From positions 248,001-312,000 of the forward strand of contig JAFCMP010000001.1 in assembly GCA_017506865.1 (NCBI GenBank): a DNA stretch of 64,000 nucleotides, read 5' to 3'. Made by a program: the position numbers and the translations under genes. The DNA is from Tribonema minus (Eukaryota; Sar; Xanthophyceae; Tribonematales; Tribonemataceae). A model generated the notes under the pieces. That model was not told where the DNA came from and made no database searches. It saw nothing but the letters and a program-made list of their open reading frames with translations. Of this stretch, positions 6,900-64,000 are shown in pieces; positions within the stretch are counted from its first letter, which is position 1; every line of letters starts with the position of its first letter.

Positions 6900-9391
6900 T
6901 TCCAACCTTTGTGCACTGCAAACACAGTTGCAAGCTGTTGCCAATGCATACCCCTTGTACTGCTCGGTCACAGCAATGACGCTCAATTTGATCTACACTT
7001 CTCGTCCTGTCAGCTCCAGCTCGCTCGTTGTTTTCTCTCCTTCAAGTTCTGCTTCAACTTCAAGCTCAGCCCTGAAGCAGTCTTCGGGCCTGATGGCGCC
7101 CAACGCACTCCTCTGGAGCATTGCTCACATGCGGAGGATGGAGCTAGGGCATTCAGCGCGCTGCTTGTGGAATTGCCAGCGCCAGCAGCGCCAGACGGAG
7201 CTGGAGATTGGATGGTGCTTGTGGAGTCGTTGGGAGCAGCAGCAGCAGCTGCGCCAGCAACAGCAGCTCTTCCGCACCTGCATGCAGAGGCACTAACTTG
7301 GAGCCTGGTTGGCGCCCATGATTGCTACAACCACTCCTCTGGAGTGGGCACTGTTGTGGGGCCCGCAATTGCTTCAACCACTTCGCCGGGAGTATCGCCC
7401 GCGAGCTGGGGACGGACATGTGTGCGTTAGAGCTTGAGGGCAGTCAGGCAGCTGCAGCAGGCAGCTGCTGGGGGAGTTCCGCAACAGCCGGAGGACTCAG
7501 AGGGTAGTAATACCACCAGTGGTAGAAGTATTAGCAGCAGTAGAGGTAGGGGTAGCTGTACTTGGACAGGAATGGGATGCGCTTAGGTGCACCCTTGTGG
7601 TGCGCTGGGCGCTATTTGCTGACGGTATGGTGTCTATACTGCACAAACTTTGCATGCCACACAGGGTTCTTCGCCCCTGAAAGCGAAATAAATTAAAAGT
7701 GTTCATTAGGGCACGCCCTGTCTGCAGTGGGCATACCACTGGCAACCGCGGTGGTTCCGCTCACCAAATCACTCTACTGCATGCTGCGACAATGTTCCAG
7801 CATGGAATCACGTCGTTGTCGTGTGCTATAGATGGATGCCGCCTATTGCACCGAGTGACTGAGTCACAGCAAACTGCAGTGCCGCAGTAACAGCTGGCAC
7901 ATAATATAACAACACGACTGGTGGTGTTGCACCTGCAGGTGTCAGTGAGGACGATTGTGGCCTTGGCGGCAAGTACTGCATCTGCCCAGGGGATGCGCCT
8001 GGCATGTACGTTGACCAAAAACAAGTGCTGCGTTGCATCAAACACCAGTGTACGAGAACAGCCCGGCCGGCCCATGCATTGACAATACTTCCTCACTACC
8101 CCGCAATGCACACGGGCGTACCAAAGCACAGCACTGCGGTATCACATGAGACATCATCGCTAGCAGCAGTAGATTCTGCCTCGATGGATATCTGAGAACA
8201 AGCCCTGGACATACGACATGCACACTCGATACCTCTGACATATTCAAAGCATCAGCACGCAAGCACATGCCCTCTGCTGCGCTGAACGCTGAGCGCTGCC
8301 ACTTGTGCCTTGCAGGCGCATGCAGGGCGGTTCTGGTGTGCCGCTGCGACGTGGGCGAACGCTTCGTGACGCTGCGCGTGCTGGACGACGCCCATCGATG
8401 GCCGCAGCAGTGGCAGCGGCGGCGGCGGCGGCAGCGCAGCCGCCAGTCACTTCGCTTCACGGTCGTGGTCGCCACCAACCGCATCGCGTACACTTATGCT
8501 ATCGCATGCGGCGGCACCAGCTGGCGCGGACACGGAGATTTCATGTCAACATGCTGCCATACGAGAGTACTAGTAGGTGCGCACAGTCTCTGTGCATTCC
8601 TAGCTGTTGATAGTTGTGTTGAAAGGCAAATTAGCTCCATGTATACAGAGATCAAGCTGGGGCAAGAAGATGACAATGAATATGCTTGGATGCATTGATC
8701 GAATACCAGCGTGGGTGGCGCATGAAGCTCACCAAGGGGCTGAGATATACATGAGCGACAAGAGGACCAACAGACCACAAATTGCGGCTGGCGCGCGTGT
8801 TGCAAGAAAATATCACTGGAAAGCAACACGTCAGACTTGCACGACCTTCAACAGACACTCAGGAAAACCTCAACATCCTGACAGGTGGCGATGAAATGGC
8901 GACACTTGATTCAGAGTCCGAATAGCGAAATGATCACTGCAGTCTTTTTTAACAATTTGAAAGAATAAATCTCAGACGTCGACGAAACATTATGCAGCTA
9001 AATGAGCGCCACTGACGGCAGCGACACATGCTCAGCGCTGTCAGACAGCGCAGCACTACTGTAAGCACCTAAATTGTGCGCCCACATACCATCGTGAAGC
9101 TGCTTGTAAGATGTGGACACGTGGCAAACTGCAGGGCTTCTCGGCACTGCTACTGCTGGCGGGCACTTTGTGCGTTTGGAAACCAGATGTTGGAGTGTTG
9201 TAGAGTTGTGTGGGGAAGGGGCATGAGCGGCAATCACTCATGCATAGACGAGTGTTGCAGTACTGCTCAACACACGCGTGGACCGGTAACAAGCGTGTAC
9301 GTCTGTGGGATGAGACCGTGACCGCAGTCTAACCCTGAATCTAATTTTGAACCCTCAACCCACCGTGGCAACACACCACGCACTACGCTCA
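6900..9391. other. about 2.5 kb without a secure gene; two weak coding-like stretches
   Basis: The promoter of the plastid-targeted gene should lie just above 6899. Two GC-rich stretches on the plus strand are open and protein-like but have no start, splice partner or known domain: about 7060-7430 (an Ala-rich frame with L-S-P-E-A-V-F and a V-V-G-P segment) and about 8314-8590 (after a TGCAG acceptor, with RAVLVCRCDVGERFVTLRVL). They could be exons of unmodelled genes or relics. AACTTC-type motifs occur at about 7020-7070, and a TACTAGTA palindrome is at 8570-8577. Confidence 0.3.
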
Positions 9392-23448: not shown

Positions 23449-23935
23449 CACAGCTGGCGCCATCGGAGTACTACTAGTAGAGGAGCAGACGACAGGCTGC
23501 TTAGGGTTAGGGTTAGGGCAAGCTGTCACAGTGTGCGGGAAGTCGCCGGGCGGCACTCTGCATGCGCGGCTGTGTCAAGCGCCACGCGTCAACTTGAAGG
23601 CGCACGACACCATCGTCCACAATAACGTCAAGAGGGCCACCGTGACGCAGCGCAATGCCATCATGATCCTGCGGCAATACCTCAAAATGGGACCAGCTGG
23701 TGGATGAGGACTACTCGTGTACGCCGTTTCTGGGATCCGCCGGGCCGCCGGGAAGTCGCAGCATGGACATCGTCCTGCCTGCCGACGCCTTCCCGGTGAC
23801 TGGCTACGATGACCCGACACGTCAACTACCGCTCATGGTGGACGTTACCTGCTTCGAGGCACAGGTGGCGTCGCGGGCGCAGAAGACTGACTCGAGACGC
23901 ATGAGGCCGCGGCTCTCAAGCTGCGAAGGCGTCCG
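23449..23935 (+). mobile_element. broken copy of an RLE-type non-LTR retroelement (zinc knuckle to endonuclease)
   Basis: This stretch is clearly related to the retroelement ORF at 62686-64000 and lies on the plus strand. It keeps CGKSPGGTLHARLCQAPRV, then an HDTIVHN block, then, after a frameshift near 23700, GSAGPPGSRSMDIVLPADAF and LPLMVDVTCFEAQVASRA. Both ends are lost. It carries a (TTAGGG)3 run, a TACTAGTA block and other indels against the intact relative. It lies just beyond the truncated 3' end of the copy B pseudogene and may be connected with that truncation. Confidence 0.75.
23501..23518 (+). repeat. (TTAGGG)3 telomere-like insertion inside a retroelement copy
   Basis: Three perfect TTAGGG units sit inside the zinc-knuckle region of the broken retroelement. 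The intact relative reads straight from GGCTG to CAAGCTG at the same place (about 63345-63360, minus), so the telomeric units are an insertion, with a short extra string a few bases later. Confidence 0.8.
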
Positions 23936-25292
23936 TATTTGCCCCAAAACGCTGATCAGCGTCATGCATGGTGTCTGCGCACGCTGTGTAGGAGAGCAAC
24001 TAGCCTAAGGGGGTTCAACTAAGTTAGGGTCAGGGTTGAGAAACCGCGGAGGCCGCCAACAGTGCCGAAAGTCCTCGCAGGTTGCTACATGCATGTCCAC
24101 GGTCCACAAGCAGCTCCAGGATGCGTGTGGCGCTCAACTTAGGTGCTTACAGTCATAATATTATGATAGTTGTTCACTTTTCGACTCCGTGGCGCCGTCG
24201 GGCACCCCATGCCACTGGCAAGCATCGGATCCAAGCTCAGAGGCACCTGCACCTGGTCCAGTGGCACCCTTAGGAGTGGTGTCCTCCAAAAGATAATCAT
24301 TGATGCCGCAGGTGTCCTGTGCCATGTCGGCCGGCAGTGGCGGGCGCACGGGCCGTGGCATCGGCAGTTGGTGCGCACCGGTGCGTGGCTCCAATGCGTC
24401 GTCAAAGTCTGTGGCAGCCATCGCGCCCGCAGGTGCCAGCGGATATGAGCGACGCTCCCCACTGTGATTGGTGACGCCACCGTCGGTGCTGCCACCATCG
24501 GTGTCGATGCCGCCGACCGCCGAGACGCGGCTGCTGGCGGTGGAGGACACGCGCGTGGCTGTGGCGACGGCGGCGGTGGCGGCGAAAGTGTCTGCCGGGT
24601 ACGCTGCGTTGTGCTGCAGTGCCTCCTGTGCAAAGCTCTCAAAGTCCTCTGGGGTGACACGCTCCCACAGCTTGGTATTGGGAGCGCGTCCGCACCAAGT
24701 GATGTACAGCGCGGAGGGCTGTGTGGCGAGGTCAATCGCCGCCACCTCACTCGGGTGGAGGTCGAGCTGCGTGCAGTGCGTGAAGATGCGTGCTGCGCCG
24801 CGCGCATTCATGTCCGCCACAATGCGGTGGACGGCAGGGCAGCGGAGCTCGCTGCAGTTTCCGAATGCGCAGCGCAGGCACACAGGCGGGGGCGCGGGGG
24901 TGCTGGGTGAGCATGCGCGTTCTGCTGGTTACTAAGTGAAGCAGTTCCACATGCACACACGGCTCAGGCGTGGGTTGACAAACCTGTTTCTGCGGTGATC
25001 TGGCAGCAGCAGTTTCATCACGAGGCGATGACGGAAAAATCAAACTGATGCTACTAGTAGGACGCAAAGTGTTAACCTGAGCTGGTACTTCTCGAGGACG
25101 ATGAATATAAACACTCAAGAGCAACTGCCATTTGGTGGTCATGCTTTGCGCCTCTCAGCAGAGATCTCAAGTCAAATCAAGATATTGTGCACGCCTGCCC
25201 CAGCACTGTGACAGCTTAAACGCGATGCGTCAGTAGTCACAGCTGCTACCGTCATGCTGCAACATACCATATTATTTAGAAAGTATGATTTC

Positions 25293-32700: not shown

Positions 32701-34425
32701 TTGCCTAGGCACTCAATGATTCGTGGAAAGTCGGGCGCCTTCGACATGTAACGTCTGCTCCCTCACCCTGCGTAGTCCTCGACGGCAACAAGCATGAAGG
32801 CCAGGTTCAGGTACGCGAGCATGAGGGAAAGCACAGGCGCCTCGCCGCAATGGCTGACCAGCGCGCGTGCGCAGTCAATGTAAGGCTGCGCCTCATTCAC
32901 GTGGGAAGCATCGCACAGGACCTTGCCGCCGGCGACGCAGGAGAGGAGCAGGGACTCATTAGCGGCCGCGATTACAGCGTGCCACCTGCTGGCGCCCTGG
33001 TCGGGTGTCATGGCTCTGCTGAGGCCATTTTTGCCGTGCGTGAGCAGGCGCATGGCTGTGCGCTGCACCTCCTGCTCGCGCACAAAGCCTGCAGAGAAGG
33101 GGGAGCGTGTTCATGAATTCATAAGCTACATTGTACCAGTGCTCAGAGCTGCCAGGAGGGGCGCTGCATATAAAACTAAGAGCCAGTCGTGTGCCAGCGG
33201 CAAGAGGGTGCATGTGCAATGCACTGTCACAGGTGCCGTGCCGCTCACATCAGCTTCCAGCCTGTGTGGTGATTTGAGCACTGCATCAACAGTGCTACCC
33301 TGCAGCGGACCTCACAGTGCGACGCTGACGCATTCACAATCATCATGCAAGTGCCAACATGCGCGTGTGACAAAAAGGCTGCTCAGCGCTGCAGCTCGTG
33401 CCCATGAGACTCACCGACATTGCCGGTAGCTAAGCCTCAGCTGAATCTGGTATCTTCTACGTTTCATCACATGCAGAGAGGCTGAGATCGGCATCCAGAA
33501 TTGCTGTCTGACGCATGTACTACTAGTAGAACGCCAGGGCATGTATCATAATGCAGCCAGCAAGAAAAGGGTTTCTGTACTTTAAAGTACCTTTTAGGCG
33601 GTTACTGTAACAGCACTTGATTCTACTTGGTTCATGCAAGGCAGATGTGATATCCGTCTCTGAGGCCAAGAATCTGTATACACACTGTGGCACTTGCTTA
33701 ACAGCGGCATCGCACAGCTGACGCTGTAATCAGGATTAGGGCTAGAGGTAGGGTTGGGGATACTAGGGGTATAATTACGTGCTTAGCATACCTACGCCCA
33801 TGTAGGCCAGCAGGTGGATCTCCAGGTACTTGCGCTCTTCTTGACCCAGGAGCTGTCCAGTGTGGAGTGATGGGTGAGCAGGCAACATGGCTTGCATTTG
33901 CCGCTGCTGCCTAGCATTGCTCACAGCGTGTATGCCACGGTCACCGGACAACTGCACAGTGCCCGCGTGCTTCTTGGGCTTGGGTCCCCTCCTTCGAAAC
34001 TGATCGCAGAGAGATGATGGGGGGGGGACAGTGAGATGAAGGGGAATGGGCACACCCCGCATGACGTGCATGACATGCTTGTGCTGCCTGCCAGTGAGGG
34101 AGTTGCAGCGCATGATTACATTGAGATGGTGACCGTGCGCGTTGTTTTTGTTGCGGTGCAGCTTCAATTTCGCGAAGATTTGGAGCAACGCAACCCAGCA
34201 AACTGCAAACCGGTGCTCTTGACTGATGGCAGCAATTCCATTGCAAGACATCCCTGTGTGCAACGAACGATTCTATTGCGCGCAACACAGAACAACATGA
34301 AGATCAAGGTGCCACCACTATACTCTACCAGGACCCCGGCGCCCCCCATCCCAGGGTACTACATTCACACCCTTAAATGCTGCAGCCACATTAAGCCCGC
34401 ATTGCTGCTAACAATGTCGTTTGAT

Positions 34426-39730: not shown

Positions 39731-40441
39731 TTAATATGGAGCTACGGACTCATCCAGACCATCGTCGTCATCTTTTTCGTCCTCATCTAATTCATCCGCT
39801 ACATCGTAGTCATCGTACTCAAAGTCCCCCTCGTCGTCGAAATCGAATCCGCCCACCATGCCCGACTCTGTCGTGCTACCGGAATTGACTTTGCCTATCA
39901 GGTGCATGACGTCGACAGCGGCCCCTATGTCCGTCTGCTGGAAAGTGAGCTCTGGCACACCCTTCATGTCCTTGAGTCGCTGGGACAGCGCAAAGCGAAT
40001 GCCCCCCGTGTTGCGCACACACCACCCGTAGGCCTCTCTTTTCTCCAGTCTGTCTCCGTACACAGACACGAATATGCGTGCGTTGCGTAGGTCCGGCGAC
40101 ACATTGACGTCCACGATGCTAATTTTGGACCGCAGCTCGTCGCTGAGAGCCTTGGAGCCTTTGACGTGATGCCCAAGCCTGATGATGCTGGCGAGTTCGG
40201 CTGTGAGAAGTTGGCTGATACGAGCCTGCCTCTTGGACTCCGGCCTGGCGGCCTTAAACCTGTTGGCCCTCCCCATGCGAAGCTGCGTCCTCGACGCTCG
40301 ACATGTGTGTGTCGCAGATGCTGTTTGTGTGGGCGCCAGGCAGGTTGTAGTTGCTGCTGGTCTAGCACTGGCTGGTGCGAGGAATGCCACCGCTGCAGGC
40401 GCACCGGCGAGAAGAGCAGCGCACACTGCGAACGCTTGCAT
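39731..40441 (-). CDS. rbfA: plastid ribosome-binding factor A (RbfA), nuclear encoded
   Basis: Single-exon gene of 236 residues. RbfA binds the small ribosomal subunit and supports 16S rRNA 5'-end maturation and late 30S assembly; here it should act in the plastid. Residues 1-19 are a signal peptide ending A-V-A, followed by F-L-A-P-A-S-A-R-P and a Ser/Thr/Arg-rich transit stretch to about 55. The KH-like RbfA domain spans about 70-175: RISQLLTAELASIIRLG, then IVDVNVSPDLRNARIFVSVY, IRFALSQRLKDMKGVPELTF and the closing D-I-G-A-A-V-D segment, all in bacterial order. An acidic Asp/Glu tail (about 195-236) is an addition to bacterial RbfA. The start is the first ATG and places the signal peptide at the N-terminus. 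It is divergent from the PNUTS-like gene, with 117 bp between the two ATGs. Confidence 0.93.
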   Translation of the reverse strand: MQAFAVCAALLAGAPAAVAFLAPASARPAATTTCLAPTQTASATHTCRASRTQLRMGRANRFKAARPESKRQARISQLLTAELASIIRLGHHVKGSKALSDELRSKISIVDVNVSPDLRNARIFVSVYGDRLEKREAYGWCVRNTGGIRFALSQRLKDMKGVPELTFQQTDIGAAVDVMHLIGKVNSGSTTESGMVGGFDFDDEGDFEYDDYDVADELDEDEKDDDDGLDESVAPY

Positions 40442-53888: not shown

Positions 53889-54561
53889 ATGAATTGTGCG
53901 CTGTGTGTGCCGGTCAATGTCAAATGCCGTGGTGCCAAACAAAAATGTTGAGTCATTGCACTTCCCGTTTTTCTGTGACTACTAGTATTACTACTACTAG
54001 TAGCTGGTCTACATCCCTCTATATCTTGTGGTCAGATGAGCCGCCCCGACAGACCATGAGGAAATAAAAAGGGGGGGCGCAGACCTTGCGGCTCGTGCTA
54101 CATTGCTGAGCACCGACGCCATCACCTACAACAGCAGCACAGACCCATGCTTTTACATGCGCTTGCAAAGCCATCGAGAACCACCAAGCCCTGGAATCCT
54201 GGATAGGTTCGCCTGTGAGGTTTACTCGCTTCAGTGGACCACAACACTGAGCCGGAACTGAGGGCGTGCGATGCGGTGGATAATTAACTCCAATTGGCAG
54301 CACTCGAGTAGGCCGCCACTAGAGTTTGCCATGGCTGAGCTAGAAATCAAACACTATTAGAACTGGTCTGGATTCTGGATTCCGGGGAACAGAGTTTATT
54401 CTTGCCGGTGGCGTGAACGCTGTTTTGCGGCGGATGCGAGAGCTTGAAAGACACCGAGTTGCAGCAGACGAGTTGCACCGCCACTAGAGCTCGCACGCTG
54501 CAGAGCAAAAACTCGGAGTTTCATACGCACACGCACACATCAACACATTCAACAGCAGCAC
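53889..54561. other. 3' flank of PNUTS and leader of pseudoprotease unit 1
   Basis: This contains two TACTAGTA palindromes (53980-53987, 53995-54002) in a block missing from the paralogous flank near 57790. It also holds a stretch (about 54094-54290) matching 57894-58100, with the string TTGCTGAGCACCGACGCCAT, and a second stretch (about 54360-54550) matching 58160-58350 just before the protein start. The flanks were therefore duplicated with the gene. No gene is called. Confidence 0.5.
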
Positions 54562-56609: not shown

Positions 56610-57338
56610 ATGCTGGTGGCACAAGATGACCTTTGGTTTTACGCTGTGCATGCTTTGCTGAGGCTACTGTACACATTTTATAGCTATGCGTTTTCTTCGC
56701 ACTGCAAAATGTGGAAATGGGACACTGCAGATGTATGCCATGCGTAGTTGTGCATTTCTAAATGAAAGTTCAACGCCGTAGCACTGGCATGCCCCTCCAA
56801 AGCCACAGGCACCTCAGGTCGAGGCAGGTGCCACTGCTGCCTCACATCAGCAAAGGCTGTGTGTGCTGTCAGTGAGCACTGCTGTTGAATGAAGAGTGCG
56901 CAGCAGCAGCAGCAGCATCGTGCTGGTGTCAGCATAATGTTTGAGAACCAGCATGCTCTGAAAATGTCAGTCTAATGGTCGAAATTGGCGTCCATCATTG
57001 CATAAATGCGACGGAATCAGCCTCACTGCTCGCCTGTGTTGACTGCCAATCTACGGCTGCCAAACCTTTACTGCAGTGTTTTGTTACAGTCTGACGTCGT
57101 ATGCAATACGCCGGCAACCAACACACACTCATCATTTACTGCTGCAGAGTGCTCTTGCAAAGAAGACAATTGCCGTTTCGCACACGTGGTAACAACACAC
57201 ATGCGTCACACTAGTCTGCACTATGATGCCTACTGCTGTAGAGTGTGTTGGAGGCAGCATCGAGTCCTGTGTGTATTCAAAAAGAGGGAAAGTCGGCAAA
57301 TTTTCCAGCAGTGATGACAGGTTCTCCACCAATATTTT

Positions 57339-57706: not shown

Positions 57707-58356
57707 ATGCGCTGTGTGTGCTGGTGAATGTCAAATGCGGTGGTGACAAAGGATTGTTCTGAGTACTTGCGCTTTCCGTTTCCGAGAGTCTGTGCTGGCC
57801 CGATCTAAATCTCTCTGACATTATCGGATGCTACCTTTGTTGGCTTGTATGAGGGCAAGGCGAGGGAGAAACAGAAGGGGGACGCACACCTCACAACTCG
57901 CGTCACATTGCTGAGCACCGACGCCATCACCTACAACAGCAGCACAGACCCATGCTTTGCATGCTCTAAAGCCATCAAGAAGCACCAAAACCCTGGAATG
58001 GAATCCTGGATAGGTTCGCCTGTAAGCTTTACTCGCTTCGGTGGACCGCAATACCGAGCCGGAATCGAAGGCGTGCGATGCGGCGGATAATTAACTCAAG
58101 CTGGCACACACTCGAGTTGGCCGCCACAAGAGCTGGCTGAGCTCGAGCACTATTAGGGCTAGTCTGGATTCCGGAGGGAACAGAGTTTATTCTTGCCGGT
58201 GGCGTAAAAGCTGTTTTGCGGCGGATGCGAGAGCTTGAAAGACATCTAGTTGCAGCAGACGAGTTGCACCGCCACTAGAGCTCGCACGCTGCAGAGCAAA
58301 AAGTCGGAGTTTCATACGCACACGCACGCATCAACACATTTCAACAGCAGCACACA
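57707..58356. other. leader region of pseudoprotease unit 2 (duplicated flank)
   Basis: Paralogous to 53889-54561, without the 26-bp TACTAGTA-bearing block. It is open for about 80 codons in one frame (57845-58090), but unit 1 does not keep that frame, so it is regarded as untranslated or promoter sequence. Confidence 0.5.
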
Positions 58357-61024: not shown

Positions 61025-62359
61025 AGCACTTGTGCGCGCTTTCCTTTTCTGTGCATTGGGTGACTCAACGCGGGATTTGCATACGGGCAGAGCTGTGCGT
61101 ACTGTGCTATAGCCGCTTGTACCGTAGAAATGGATTATAACACCTCCCCGGGGTGCCATCCTTCCCAGTTTTGACAAGACCCGGCGGCAAATTGATCTTC
61201 TCAATTTGGCTCGAGAGCAGACAGCAATAGCCTCGTCTGCTGGTCAATCAAGCGATGGTGCTGGTGGGAACACCTGGTCCAGCTCACTGATGTCGAGTAT
61301 GTGTGCAGCATCGTGCAGCACATTTGCGGCATTCAGCTCACCAAATGTACTCAATTTCAAATTGTTGCCTACCTAGCTGAGCCACCATAGGCCGTACACA
61401 GCAAGCGCATAGCATACCTATGCCATAGCTGCGCATTACTCAGAGCTCACTGCGCTGGGAGCGCATGCAAGTATCGGCACAGGCGGCACTAAGTTGACAG
61501 TGCCCCATAAACTTCAACAAAAAAGTACAACATCAAGTTCAAGTTTGTATACCGGAGTCTCCTGAGGCTTGCACTTTCTGTCATCAAACCAGCCCGTGAG
61601 CCGACGTTTACTTGATGTTGCTTCGTTGCATCTCACACACTCATCTGGGGCTTTTCTGCTGTGTTGTTGGACGCTGGCACAGCACTGATTGATTGTGTAT
61701 TGGCTGATCAGCAACATTTCGTTTTAATGGCCTATTTGTGCCGCTTCGCTGTCCATGCAGACGTGATCAGAGCACAAATCAAGGGGCTGCAGCAGGAACG
61801 AAACGGGTTGTGCACCAGGAAGGAGCACTTGCAGGAAGTGGAGTCGATGCTGGTGGCACGGGGGAGGACTTTCGGTTGTACGCTGTGCATGCTTTGCTGA
61901 GGCTACGCATTGTATAGCGATGCGTATTGTTCGCCTCCAAAAAGTGGAAAGGGAACACTGCAGATGCATTCTATGCGTGGATGTGCAGTTCTACATGTCG
62001 AAACGTAGTGGCACTGGCATGCCCATTCAAGCCACATGCACCTCTGGTAGAGCCGGGTGCCACTGCCCCACATCAGCAAAGGGTTTTGTGTGTGCTGAGC
62101 ACTGCTGTTGAATGAGGTGGCAGTGCTCAACAATGCTCAGCTCTTGCTCTGAAATTGCACGCAATCCGGCGGTGGCTGAAAGCAGCAAGCAACGGACTTG
62201 CAAGCACATCGCCAAAAAACATCATGTGACAAGGGATTTGTGAGTCATAAATGTGCACTTCGCGTTTCTGCTGTGCTGTCTCTGCGTTAATGAGGTGGTT
62301 GCTTGCACATGAGTCCGCGCAGCGGATTGCTATGCTGATGCTGACTGGTACATTGCCCC
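61025..62359. other. 3' flank of unit 3, duplicated from unit 1
   Basis: This matches 55240-56940 in order, with the pieces AGCCTCGTCTGCTGGTCAAT, GCGGCATTCAGCTCACCAAA, the empty TIR-element site near 61413, GCGCATGCAA and the coiled-coil relic. It ends against the retroelement tail. No other gene was recognised. Confidence 0.55.
61661..61900 (+). pseudogene. coiled-coil exon relic, unit 3
   Basis: An open frame of 79 residues. Its central part, DVIRAQIKGLQQERNGLC followed by T-R-K-E-H-L-Q-E-V-E-S-M-L, has heptad-like spacing. A CATGCAG string directly before the D-V-I codons could be an acceptor, with the first part then intronic. The homologue at 56397-56609 is frameshifted. No start region or further exons were found, so this is treated as a fragment of an unknown gene copied with the pseudoprotease unit. 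Confidence 0.35.
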
Positions 62360-62675
62360 GAGATGCCATTTGGCGGCGGCGGCGTTTGAGTGGCTGTCGT
62401 TGCGACCCTTTCAGACTGTCATACGACATGTAGATTCCTTGCAGCTAGATGCCAATCATCTGGGCTTTTTCGCGCCCTGAGCGAGAATTAATAACAAGTA
62501 CATTGCACTATGCACTATGCACTATGCACTATGTACTTTTTATTAATTCTCGCTCAGGGCGCGAAAAAGCCCAGATGATTGGCATCTAGCTGTAAGAAAT
62601 CTACATGTCGTATGACAGTCTGAAAGTGTCGCAACGACAACCACTCAAACGCCGCCGCCGCCAAATGGCATCTCG
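62360..62675. repeat. tail-to-tail inverted repeat of two retroelement 3' tails with 7-bp microsatellite centre
   Basis: The left arm (62360-62501, plus) and right arm (62532-62675, minus) are about 95% alike and read GAGATGCCATTTGGCGGCGG through ATCTGGGCTTTTTCGCGCCC to GAGCGAGAATTAATAA. Between them is a four-unit GCACTAT repeat. The right arm belongs to the retroelement ORF beyond 62686; the left arm is only a tail. Single-stranded forms would fold into a hairpin of about 140 bp. Confidence 0.88.
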
Positions 62676-62685
62676 CGGTCCTCCC

Positions 62686-64000
62686 CTACGTCCTCCTCCA
62701 TGTGCCCCCCCCCCTGGATTCTGCCATGTGTGTCATGACACGGCCAGAGTACGCCATGTGGAGCGCTGCCAACAGTGCCGAGCGTAAGCGCGCCAGGGCG
62801 ATGCCCTTGAGAGCTTTAGGGCGCGCTCCTCCGGGCACTGACATCCTGCTGGCATACTCCGTCGCCACAGCCACCAGCAGCTTCCGCCCCTGCTCCCCGA
62901 TGCTGCCAAATGACCCTATTGCCAAAGTGGCAAGTTTGTAGCAATTCTGATCATAATGACCAGAATAGTGGGTTGTCTTGGCGGCCTCTTGGTCGTGGCA
63001 GCATTGCTCGGGGTCTGCTGCAGTCTTCGCCGCCCGCGACGCCACCTGTGCCTCGAAGCAGGTAACGTCCACCATGAGCGGTAGGTGGCGTGTCGGGTCG
63101 TCGTAGCCGGTCACCGGGAAGGCGTCGGCAGGCAGCACGATGTCCATCCTGCGACTCCCCGGCGGCCCGGCGGACCCCAGAAACGGCGTGTAGTCCTCGT
63201 CCACCAGTCCCGTTTTGAGGTATTGCCGCAGGATGCGCTGCGTGGCCCTCTTGACGCTATTGTGGACGATGGTGTCGTGCGCCTTGACGCGTGGCGCTTG
63301 ACACAGCCGTGCATGCAGGGTGCCGCCCGGCGACTTCCCGCACAGCTTGCAGCCTGCCGTCTGCTCCTCTACTCCAATGGCGCGTTTGACGGCCAGCTGC
63401 CAGGAGAGGCCATCGAACGAAGCCGTTGTGGAGTACATGGGCTCGTTGAGGAATGCCATGCCGATCGAGTGCATGTGGCGCTGCGACCGGAATCGAGCAA
63501 GTGCTTGCGTGCGTTGCGTGCCCTGCGGCAGCTGTTGCAGGTCCGCCTCCACCTTATCTGCAAGCTCGGTAGCGACGGCATCTGCAAGCGCACTCTGATT
63601 GGGGCGCTTCAGGCTACACTGCAACTGCAGAGCACTGGCGTCAAGTACGCAAGCAGCATCCGCACCAGTGCCACCACCTGCTGTCGGCCGCAGCGGCGGC
63701 TGCTGCGTAGGTGGTTGCTGCTGCAGTGGCGTTAGCGCTGGTGGCAGTATATGTTCCAGCTTGTCACCTGTTGCTGCACGTAGAGATGTGGCAGCTGTGG
63801 CGATCGTCCGCATGAGGGGCAGGCGCGCCACCTCTGCTGCTGCTGCGCCTTGTAGCATTGCTGGTGTGGAACGCGCAGCGCTGCATTGACGGCTGCCGCT
63901 GCTGCGTGCGCTGGTGCTGCAGCTGCGCCGCCTGCCGTTGCTGCTGCTGCCAGTGGTGTTGCTGCTGCCGCAGGTGTTGGTGCAGCACCTGCTGCATTGG
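62686..64000 (-). mobile_element. non-LTR retrotransposon, C-terminal part: zinc knuckle and restriction-like endonuclease (partial)
   Basis: An open frame of at least 390 residues from ATG 63858 to the stop at 62686; the frame also appears open upstream to the window edge, so the reverse-transcriptase domain should lie beyond. Order: Ala/Gln-rich linker; a helical block with RSQRHMHSIGMAFLNEP; a C-x2-C-x8-H-x3-C knuckle (CKLCGKSPGGTLHARLC); HDTIVHN; then a nuclease-like core with R-R-M-D-I-V-L-P, LPLMVDVTCFEAQVASRA and K-T residues, resembling the R/PD...D-V-T...A...K pattern of restriction-like endonucleases in site-selective LINEs (R2, CRE, NeSL type). A basic helix follows. The 3' tail and a GCATAGT repeat lie beyond the stop. 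Broken relatives lie at 23449 and as tails at 38137 and 51512. The RLE assignment is by motif only. Confidence 0.62.

Follow-up and report, generated by a model that had tools for sequence, protein, structure and literature searches.

The window analyzed here, which is the whole stretch of 64,000 nucleotides from Tribonema minus, contains an open frame on the reverse strand (39731-40441), which we take to resemble ribosome-binding factor A and to carry a plastid-type leader of the kind found in secondary-plastid algae, as well as a retroelement present in an old and a young copy and a series of short palindromic sites. The eight copies of the palindrome TACTAGTA listed in the original prediction were all found (at 203, 2520, 23472, 25052, 33521, 53980 and 53995), with the copy that had been placed at 8570 located at 8568. 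The proposal that this palindrome is over-frequent in the window was upheld, as 100 dinucleotide shuffles yielded a mean of 0.13 copies and a maximum of 1. TACTAGTA ranks eighth by frequency among the 8-bp palindromes of the window, and the commoner ones are far less in excess than TACTAGTA (8 copies versus 0.22 under a third-order model). Five of the eight sites (2520, 23472, 25052, 33521 and 53995) carry TACTAGTA in the context CTACTAGTAG.

TACTAGTA is best taken as one member of a larger class of 6-bp palindromic scars and is not itself the unit. In this class, a 4-base target U, written x-T-y with T standing for two bases, is converted to U[1-3].rc(U).U[2-4], so that 4 bases become 10 with a gain of 6 bp. 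For example, CTAG gives CTA.CTAG.TAG, which is CTACTAGTAG, CAAG gives CAACTTGAAG and CCAG gives CCACTGGCAG. The sites in the window, none of which is assigned to a strand, are as follows.

203 to 210: TACTAGTA within GTACTAGTAG, which differs from the U=CTAG form by one base (from sequence)
2519 to 2528: CTACTAGTAG, the U=CTAG footprint form (from sequence and the rule)
8568 to 8575: TACTAGTA within GTACTAGTAG, which differs from the U=CTAG form by one base (from sequence)
23468 to 23480: GTACTACTAGTAG, site of a 9-bp insertion, holding the U=GTAG form GTA.CTAC.TAG (block absent near 63358)
23524 to 23533: TGT.CACA.GTG (U=TGTG), where the old retroelement copy holds 8 inserted bp (copy comparison)
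23590 to 23599: CAA.CTTG.AAG (U=CAAG), an insertion of exactly 6 bp in the old retroelement copy (copy comparison)
23638 to 23647: CAC.CGTG.ACG (U=CACG), a 6-bp insertion in the old retroelement copy (copy comparison)
23652 to 23661: GCA.ATGC.CAT (U=GCAT), where the old retroelement copy holds 12 inserted bp (copy comparison)
25051 to 25060: CTACTAGTAG, the U=CTAG footprint form, with a highly diverged paralogue (from sequence)
33517 to 33529: GTACTACTAGTAG, an extended form, with no insertion seen relative to 20240 (from sequence and alignment)
53980 to 54003: TACTAGTA followed by CTACTAGTAG inside a 26-bp block that the paralogue near 57785 lacks (alignment)
56866 to 56875: CTG.TCAG.TGA (U=CTGA), a 6-bp gap relative to a window paralogue (excluded by the stricter flank filter)
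61272 to 61281: ACC.TGGT.CCA (U=ACCA), a 6-bp gap relative to a window paralogue (passes the stricter flank filter)

Across the genome (158 Mb), CTACTAGTAG was found 1272 times, compared to 332 times for GATGATCATC, the same word reversed and not complemented; this control is conservative, since GATGATCATC is itself a footprint form (U=GATC). Similarly, CCACTGGCAG (U=CCAG) was found 3218 times, versus 336 times for the word read backwards. Loci fetched around 24 places or place groups with CTACTAGTAG (L001-L024) were enriched for the further words CAACTTGAAG, CCACTGGCAG, ACTCAGTCTG, AGTTACTGTA, AGTCACTGTG and CAGCCTGAGG, which share one common form. When combinations of overlap and overshoot were scanned in these loci, U[1-3].rc(U).U[2-4] stood out as a sharp peak, with 478 occurrences compared to 76 under a fourth-order Markov model and 37 under false base pairing. 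The same scan of the window gave 57 occurrences versus 29 and 18, respectively, and simulations of Markov order 3, 4 and 5 (40 each) gave means of 20, 23 and 26 with a maximum of 37, so that the footprint form is in roughly twofold excess in the window. With 1-3 spacer bases inserted at either joint, the count fell from 9.7 times that under false pairing to 1.1-2.6 times, and other target lengths showed no comparable excess (16 versus 6 for 5 bases, in one simulation); with 8-base targets, the form was found neither in the window nor in L001-L024. The scans for the peak, spacers and target length omitted words that nearly repeat at a period of 1-3, including CTACTAGTAG. Without this filter, and summed over all 256 U on both strands, L001-L024 contained 1098 occurrences versus 117. 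As these loci were picked for CTACTAGTAG, their densities are biased and not typical.

Targets of the form CNNG were the most enriched (264 versus 15.7 in L001-L024 and the window pooled), and the footprint form was also in excess for most other 4-base targets, each with its own palindromic scar. The original prediction had treated TACTAGTA as the recurring unit; this view was not borne out, as the inserted letters are set by the 4-base target. Because the letters depend on the target, the rule predicts no element ending in CTACTA/TAGTAG. One feature of CTACTAGTAG, as it occurs in the window and L001-L024, falls outside the rule, namely that GTA extends the palindrome on exactly one side in 25 of 41 sites and on both sides in none (e.g., 23468-23480 and 33517-33529). 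Hairpins with odd loops (1, 3, 5 or 7 bases) exceeded expectation in L001-L024 by more than those with even loops, with 80 versus 13.6 for a loop of 1 and an arm of at least 7; palindromes with a one-base center are explained by the footprint form. For the geometry and hairpin counts, loci were concatenated without spacers and a few words may span the joints.

The original prediction also stated that the TACTAGTA block was missing from a related sequence at four sites, which proved correct for two of them. At 23472, the relative lacks precisely the 9-bp block AGTACTACT, and 53980-54002 lies inside a 26-bp block absent near 57785. Of the other two comparisons, that of 33521 with 20240 revealed no insertion, the two copies being of near-equal length and distinguished by substitutions and minor gaps, whereas the alignment around 25052 is too strongly diverged to tell whether a block was inserted. 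The rule does not account for the 9-bp block at 23472, which belongs to the one-sided GTA type.

Further analysis of the old retroelement copy near 23472 against the young copy at 63358 identified about 20 substitutions and at least eight blocks of 4-19 bp found only in the old copy, within some 350 bp. When 40 full-length young copies, including that of the window, were scored out of 1421 candidate places with an 801-base query, they matched 801-803 bases; the extra blocks were therefore gained by the old copy. Within 194 bp (23468-23661), five exact footprint forms lie at insertions absent from the relative. Two blocks, at 23590 and 23638, are simple gains of 6 bp, those of 8, 9 and 12 bp exceed a single event under the rule, and one 6-bp and one 4-bp block have other geometries or no fit. 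The old copy also carries a telomere-like insertion of about 19 bp of TTAGGG repeats (within 23472-23530), which the young copy does not have; separately, L001-L024 show strong enrichment of CCCTAA words. The end of the young high-copy retroelement is an inverted repeat, with 62356-62678 matching its own reverse complement at 93%.

A survey of gaps between repeat copies, limited to pairs from sequence longer than 400 bases and to gaps of 4-20 bp with clean flanks (n=30), found 6 bp to be the commonest length (15 of 30). Eight of these 15 gaps obey the rule, or 7 of 14 independent ones, since one event was read in both orientations; only 371 of 20000 random 6-bp blocks (1.9%) do so. None of the seven gaps of 4 or 8 bp fits, and eight gaps of 5, 7, 9, 11 or 16 bp are unable to fit by construction; in all, 22 of 29 independent events do not fit the rule. 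Moreover, when a 428-base stretch of the transposable element family MITE-1 was compared between 21 young copies and L009, the only two indels of at least 2 bp were both 6-bp insertions that fit the rule, with CTAC giving CTA.GTAG.TAC (L073) and AAAC giving AAA.GTTT.AAC (L074). The polarity of the change, i.e., insertion, is established only for the MITE-1 and retroelement cases.

Two MITE families link the footprint form to element ends. MITE-1 (433 bp) has the ends AGGATCC...GGATCCT and MITE-2 (about 409 bp) has the ends AGGAGA...TCTCCT; both show the terminal inverted repeats and the target duplication of constant length (4 bp) that characterize cut-and-paste transposons and MITEs. A direct 4-bp duplication was found in 15 of 20 MITE-2 copies, one of them being CTAG, and an inverted block was found in one of the remaining five. 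The 41 MITE-1 records include 4 with a flank common to another record, leaving 37 that are independent, of which 18 have both ends intact. Among the intact copies, nine show a direct 4-bp duplication, four a one-sided form, one a two-sided form with different U (L062) and four neither. Among the 19 with damaged ends, two show a direct duplication, three a one-sided form unconfirmed by the other flank and 14 neither. One-sided junctions read U[1-3].rc(U).y|element|U, with an inverted copy of the target located one base outside the element end. In four junctions (L055, L056, L065 and L066), U is set by the other flank and eight bases are thereby fixed: GTT.AAAC.T|element|GTTT in L056, GAA.CTTC.G|element|GAAG in L066, GAC.GGTC.C|element|GACC in L065 and, mirrored, TAAA|element|T.TTTA.AAA in L055. 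The proposal of a recurrent tiny insertion rather than a static motif is thus supported by the gaps between repeat copies, the exact rule and the inverted blocks at MITE ends.

The 4-mers used as targets by MITE-2 also have high footprint rates (9.41 versus 2.55 per 1000, P 0.0009; without CTAG, P 0.0095). For MITE-1, the targets did not match the footprint preference (P 0.75), and MITE-1 need therefore not be the main source of the scars.

Taken together, these data suggest that the TACTAGTA sites are probably excision footprints of hairpin-forming DNA transposons that duplicate a 4-bp target. A short inverted copy between flanking direct copies is also what template-switch mutations leave, and such switching, or end joining of the polymerase-theta type, could place a very short inverted copy between direct copies without the action of a transposon; the nascent strand would hop to the complementary strand, copy a few bases backwards and hop back. 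A double switch yields xT.rc(U).Ty as well, and other gaps do carry inverted copies of another geometry (e.g., CAGC at 23694, which makes ACCAGCTGGT). However, many lengths and offsets would be expected from this route, whereas a single peak was found at 4 bases with an offset of one, and the fixed geometry is linked to element ends: template switching predicts neither the 4-bp duplications of the MITEs nor the inverted blocks one base outside their ends. We therefore regard it as an unlikely source of the sites.

Instability of microsatellites, in which TAC/GTA repeats would expand, flip and make TACTAGTA by chance, is in line with the TAG/TAC runs that adjoin some sites (L001, L008, L012 and L013) and with the one-sided GTA extension, which resembles slippage. 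This account appears highly improbable, as the peak persists after removal of words near-repetitive at period 1-3, CTACTAGTAG included, and non-repetitive targets such as CCAG, CAAG and ACTG are equally clear. Even less credence can be given to TACTAGTA as a functional or selected motif (e.g., a regulator site or splicing signal) or the end of a repeat family. Its strong over-representation and the asymmetric 13-mer CTACTAGTAGTAC would agree with such a role, but most other 4-base targets are enriched too and several of the forms are insertions in dead repeat copies.

Under the preferred reading of transposon excision, the element would lie between two copies of U, as seen in both MITE families. 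One strand of the flank would then receive a nick one base beyond the element and be linked to its partner, so that the flank closes as a hairpin, xT-y*-T'x*, whose tip carries the complement of y; the one-sided junctions, the footprints and the precedent of Ac/Ds point to this step. Opening of the hairpin four bases further on would leave a 3' overhang, which would be rc(U) for one flank and U for the opposite flank. As both overhangs would derive from U, they would be perfectly complementary and could anneal; sealing would produce xT.rc(U).Ty with a gain of 6 bp, the product seen at the sites, although the route to it may differ. With U = CTAG, this would give CTA.CTAG.TAG, the palindrome originally described. 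Where one end alone was processed and rejoined to the element, the result would be xT.rc(U).y|element|U, the arrangement found in the four MITE copies. A mariner-like footprint at TA was ruled out, as the target dinucleotide varies, and so were constant C...G element ends, as the two center bases are complements of the flanking bases.

In V(D)J coding joints, P nucleotides arise from hairpin opening. There, as in the route proposed here, opening some bases from the hairpin tip leaves a short inverted copy; in contrast to V(D)J, the main product here has no junctional diversity, and both overhangs would come from one target and match perfectly. The hAT elements have an 8-bp target site duplication, which was not found for the MITEs (4 bp in the 15 MITE-2 and nine intact MITE-1 copies with direct duplications), and the MITEs were therefore not assigned to hAT. 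The hAT dimerization domain PF05699 had 131 matches in the genome, none of them tied to MITE-1 or MITE-2. For the hAT element pair Ac/Ds, passages of PMC5873905 describe footprint palindromes centered on the complement of the base adjacent to the element, for which hairpinned donor ends were proposed, and a part of PMC1978519 gives a similar account, with a 7-bp target duplication in a figure legend. As far as the relevant parts of PMC5873905, PMC1978519 and PMC3499496 go, the footprints described here resemble those of Ac/Ds and other hAT elements in the palindrome center, the one-base offset and the small gains without large loss. They differ in the 4-bp target and in that one product dominates the genomic scan, whereas the hAT footprints are heterogeneous (28 types among 128 for Ac/Ds in the portion of PMC5873905 concerned). 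Among the few matches listed by a literature search of partial coverage, no genome-wide palindromic scars of 4-bp targets were found.

A wider interpretation, which we put forward tentatively and hold to be somewhat less than evenly balanced, is that a group of DNA transposons with a 4-bp target, distinct from the hairpin-forming superfamilies known so far, excises through flank hairpins with a one-base offset, that the overhangs anneal almost uniformly and that tens of thousands of scars have made this process a main source of non-coding insertions. Were the excess of 31 seen in the 64-kb window typical, the 158 Mb would hold about 77,000 scars. On the excision reading, each scar may mark a site where a transposon once sat and, since each retains a readable copy of its target, both the pre-insertion sequence and the location of the departed transposon could be recovered from a single genome, making excision history countable without strain data. 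Given about 8 insertions versus about 20 substitutions in the old retroelement copy, the process may rival point mutation in dead DNA. The scars could also offer a view of transposon-hairpin repair in one species at a scale beyond that of single-locus assays.

Among candidates for an autonomous element, a 2.4-kb stretch between MITE-1 ends that contains a MITE at one side (L093) was rejected, as its two longest open frames matched no Pfam family. Scans of inverted repeats for other elements returned mostly nested or simple-repeat pairs; a further inverted-repeat element with the ends TGTGCGCCCAGGT was observed at L005:5030-7165 and L007:1329-1589.
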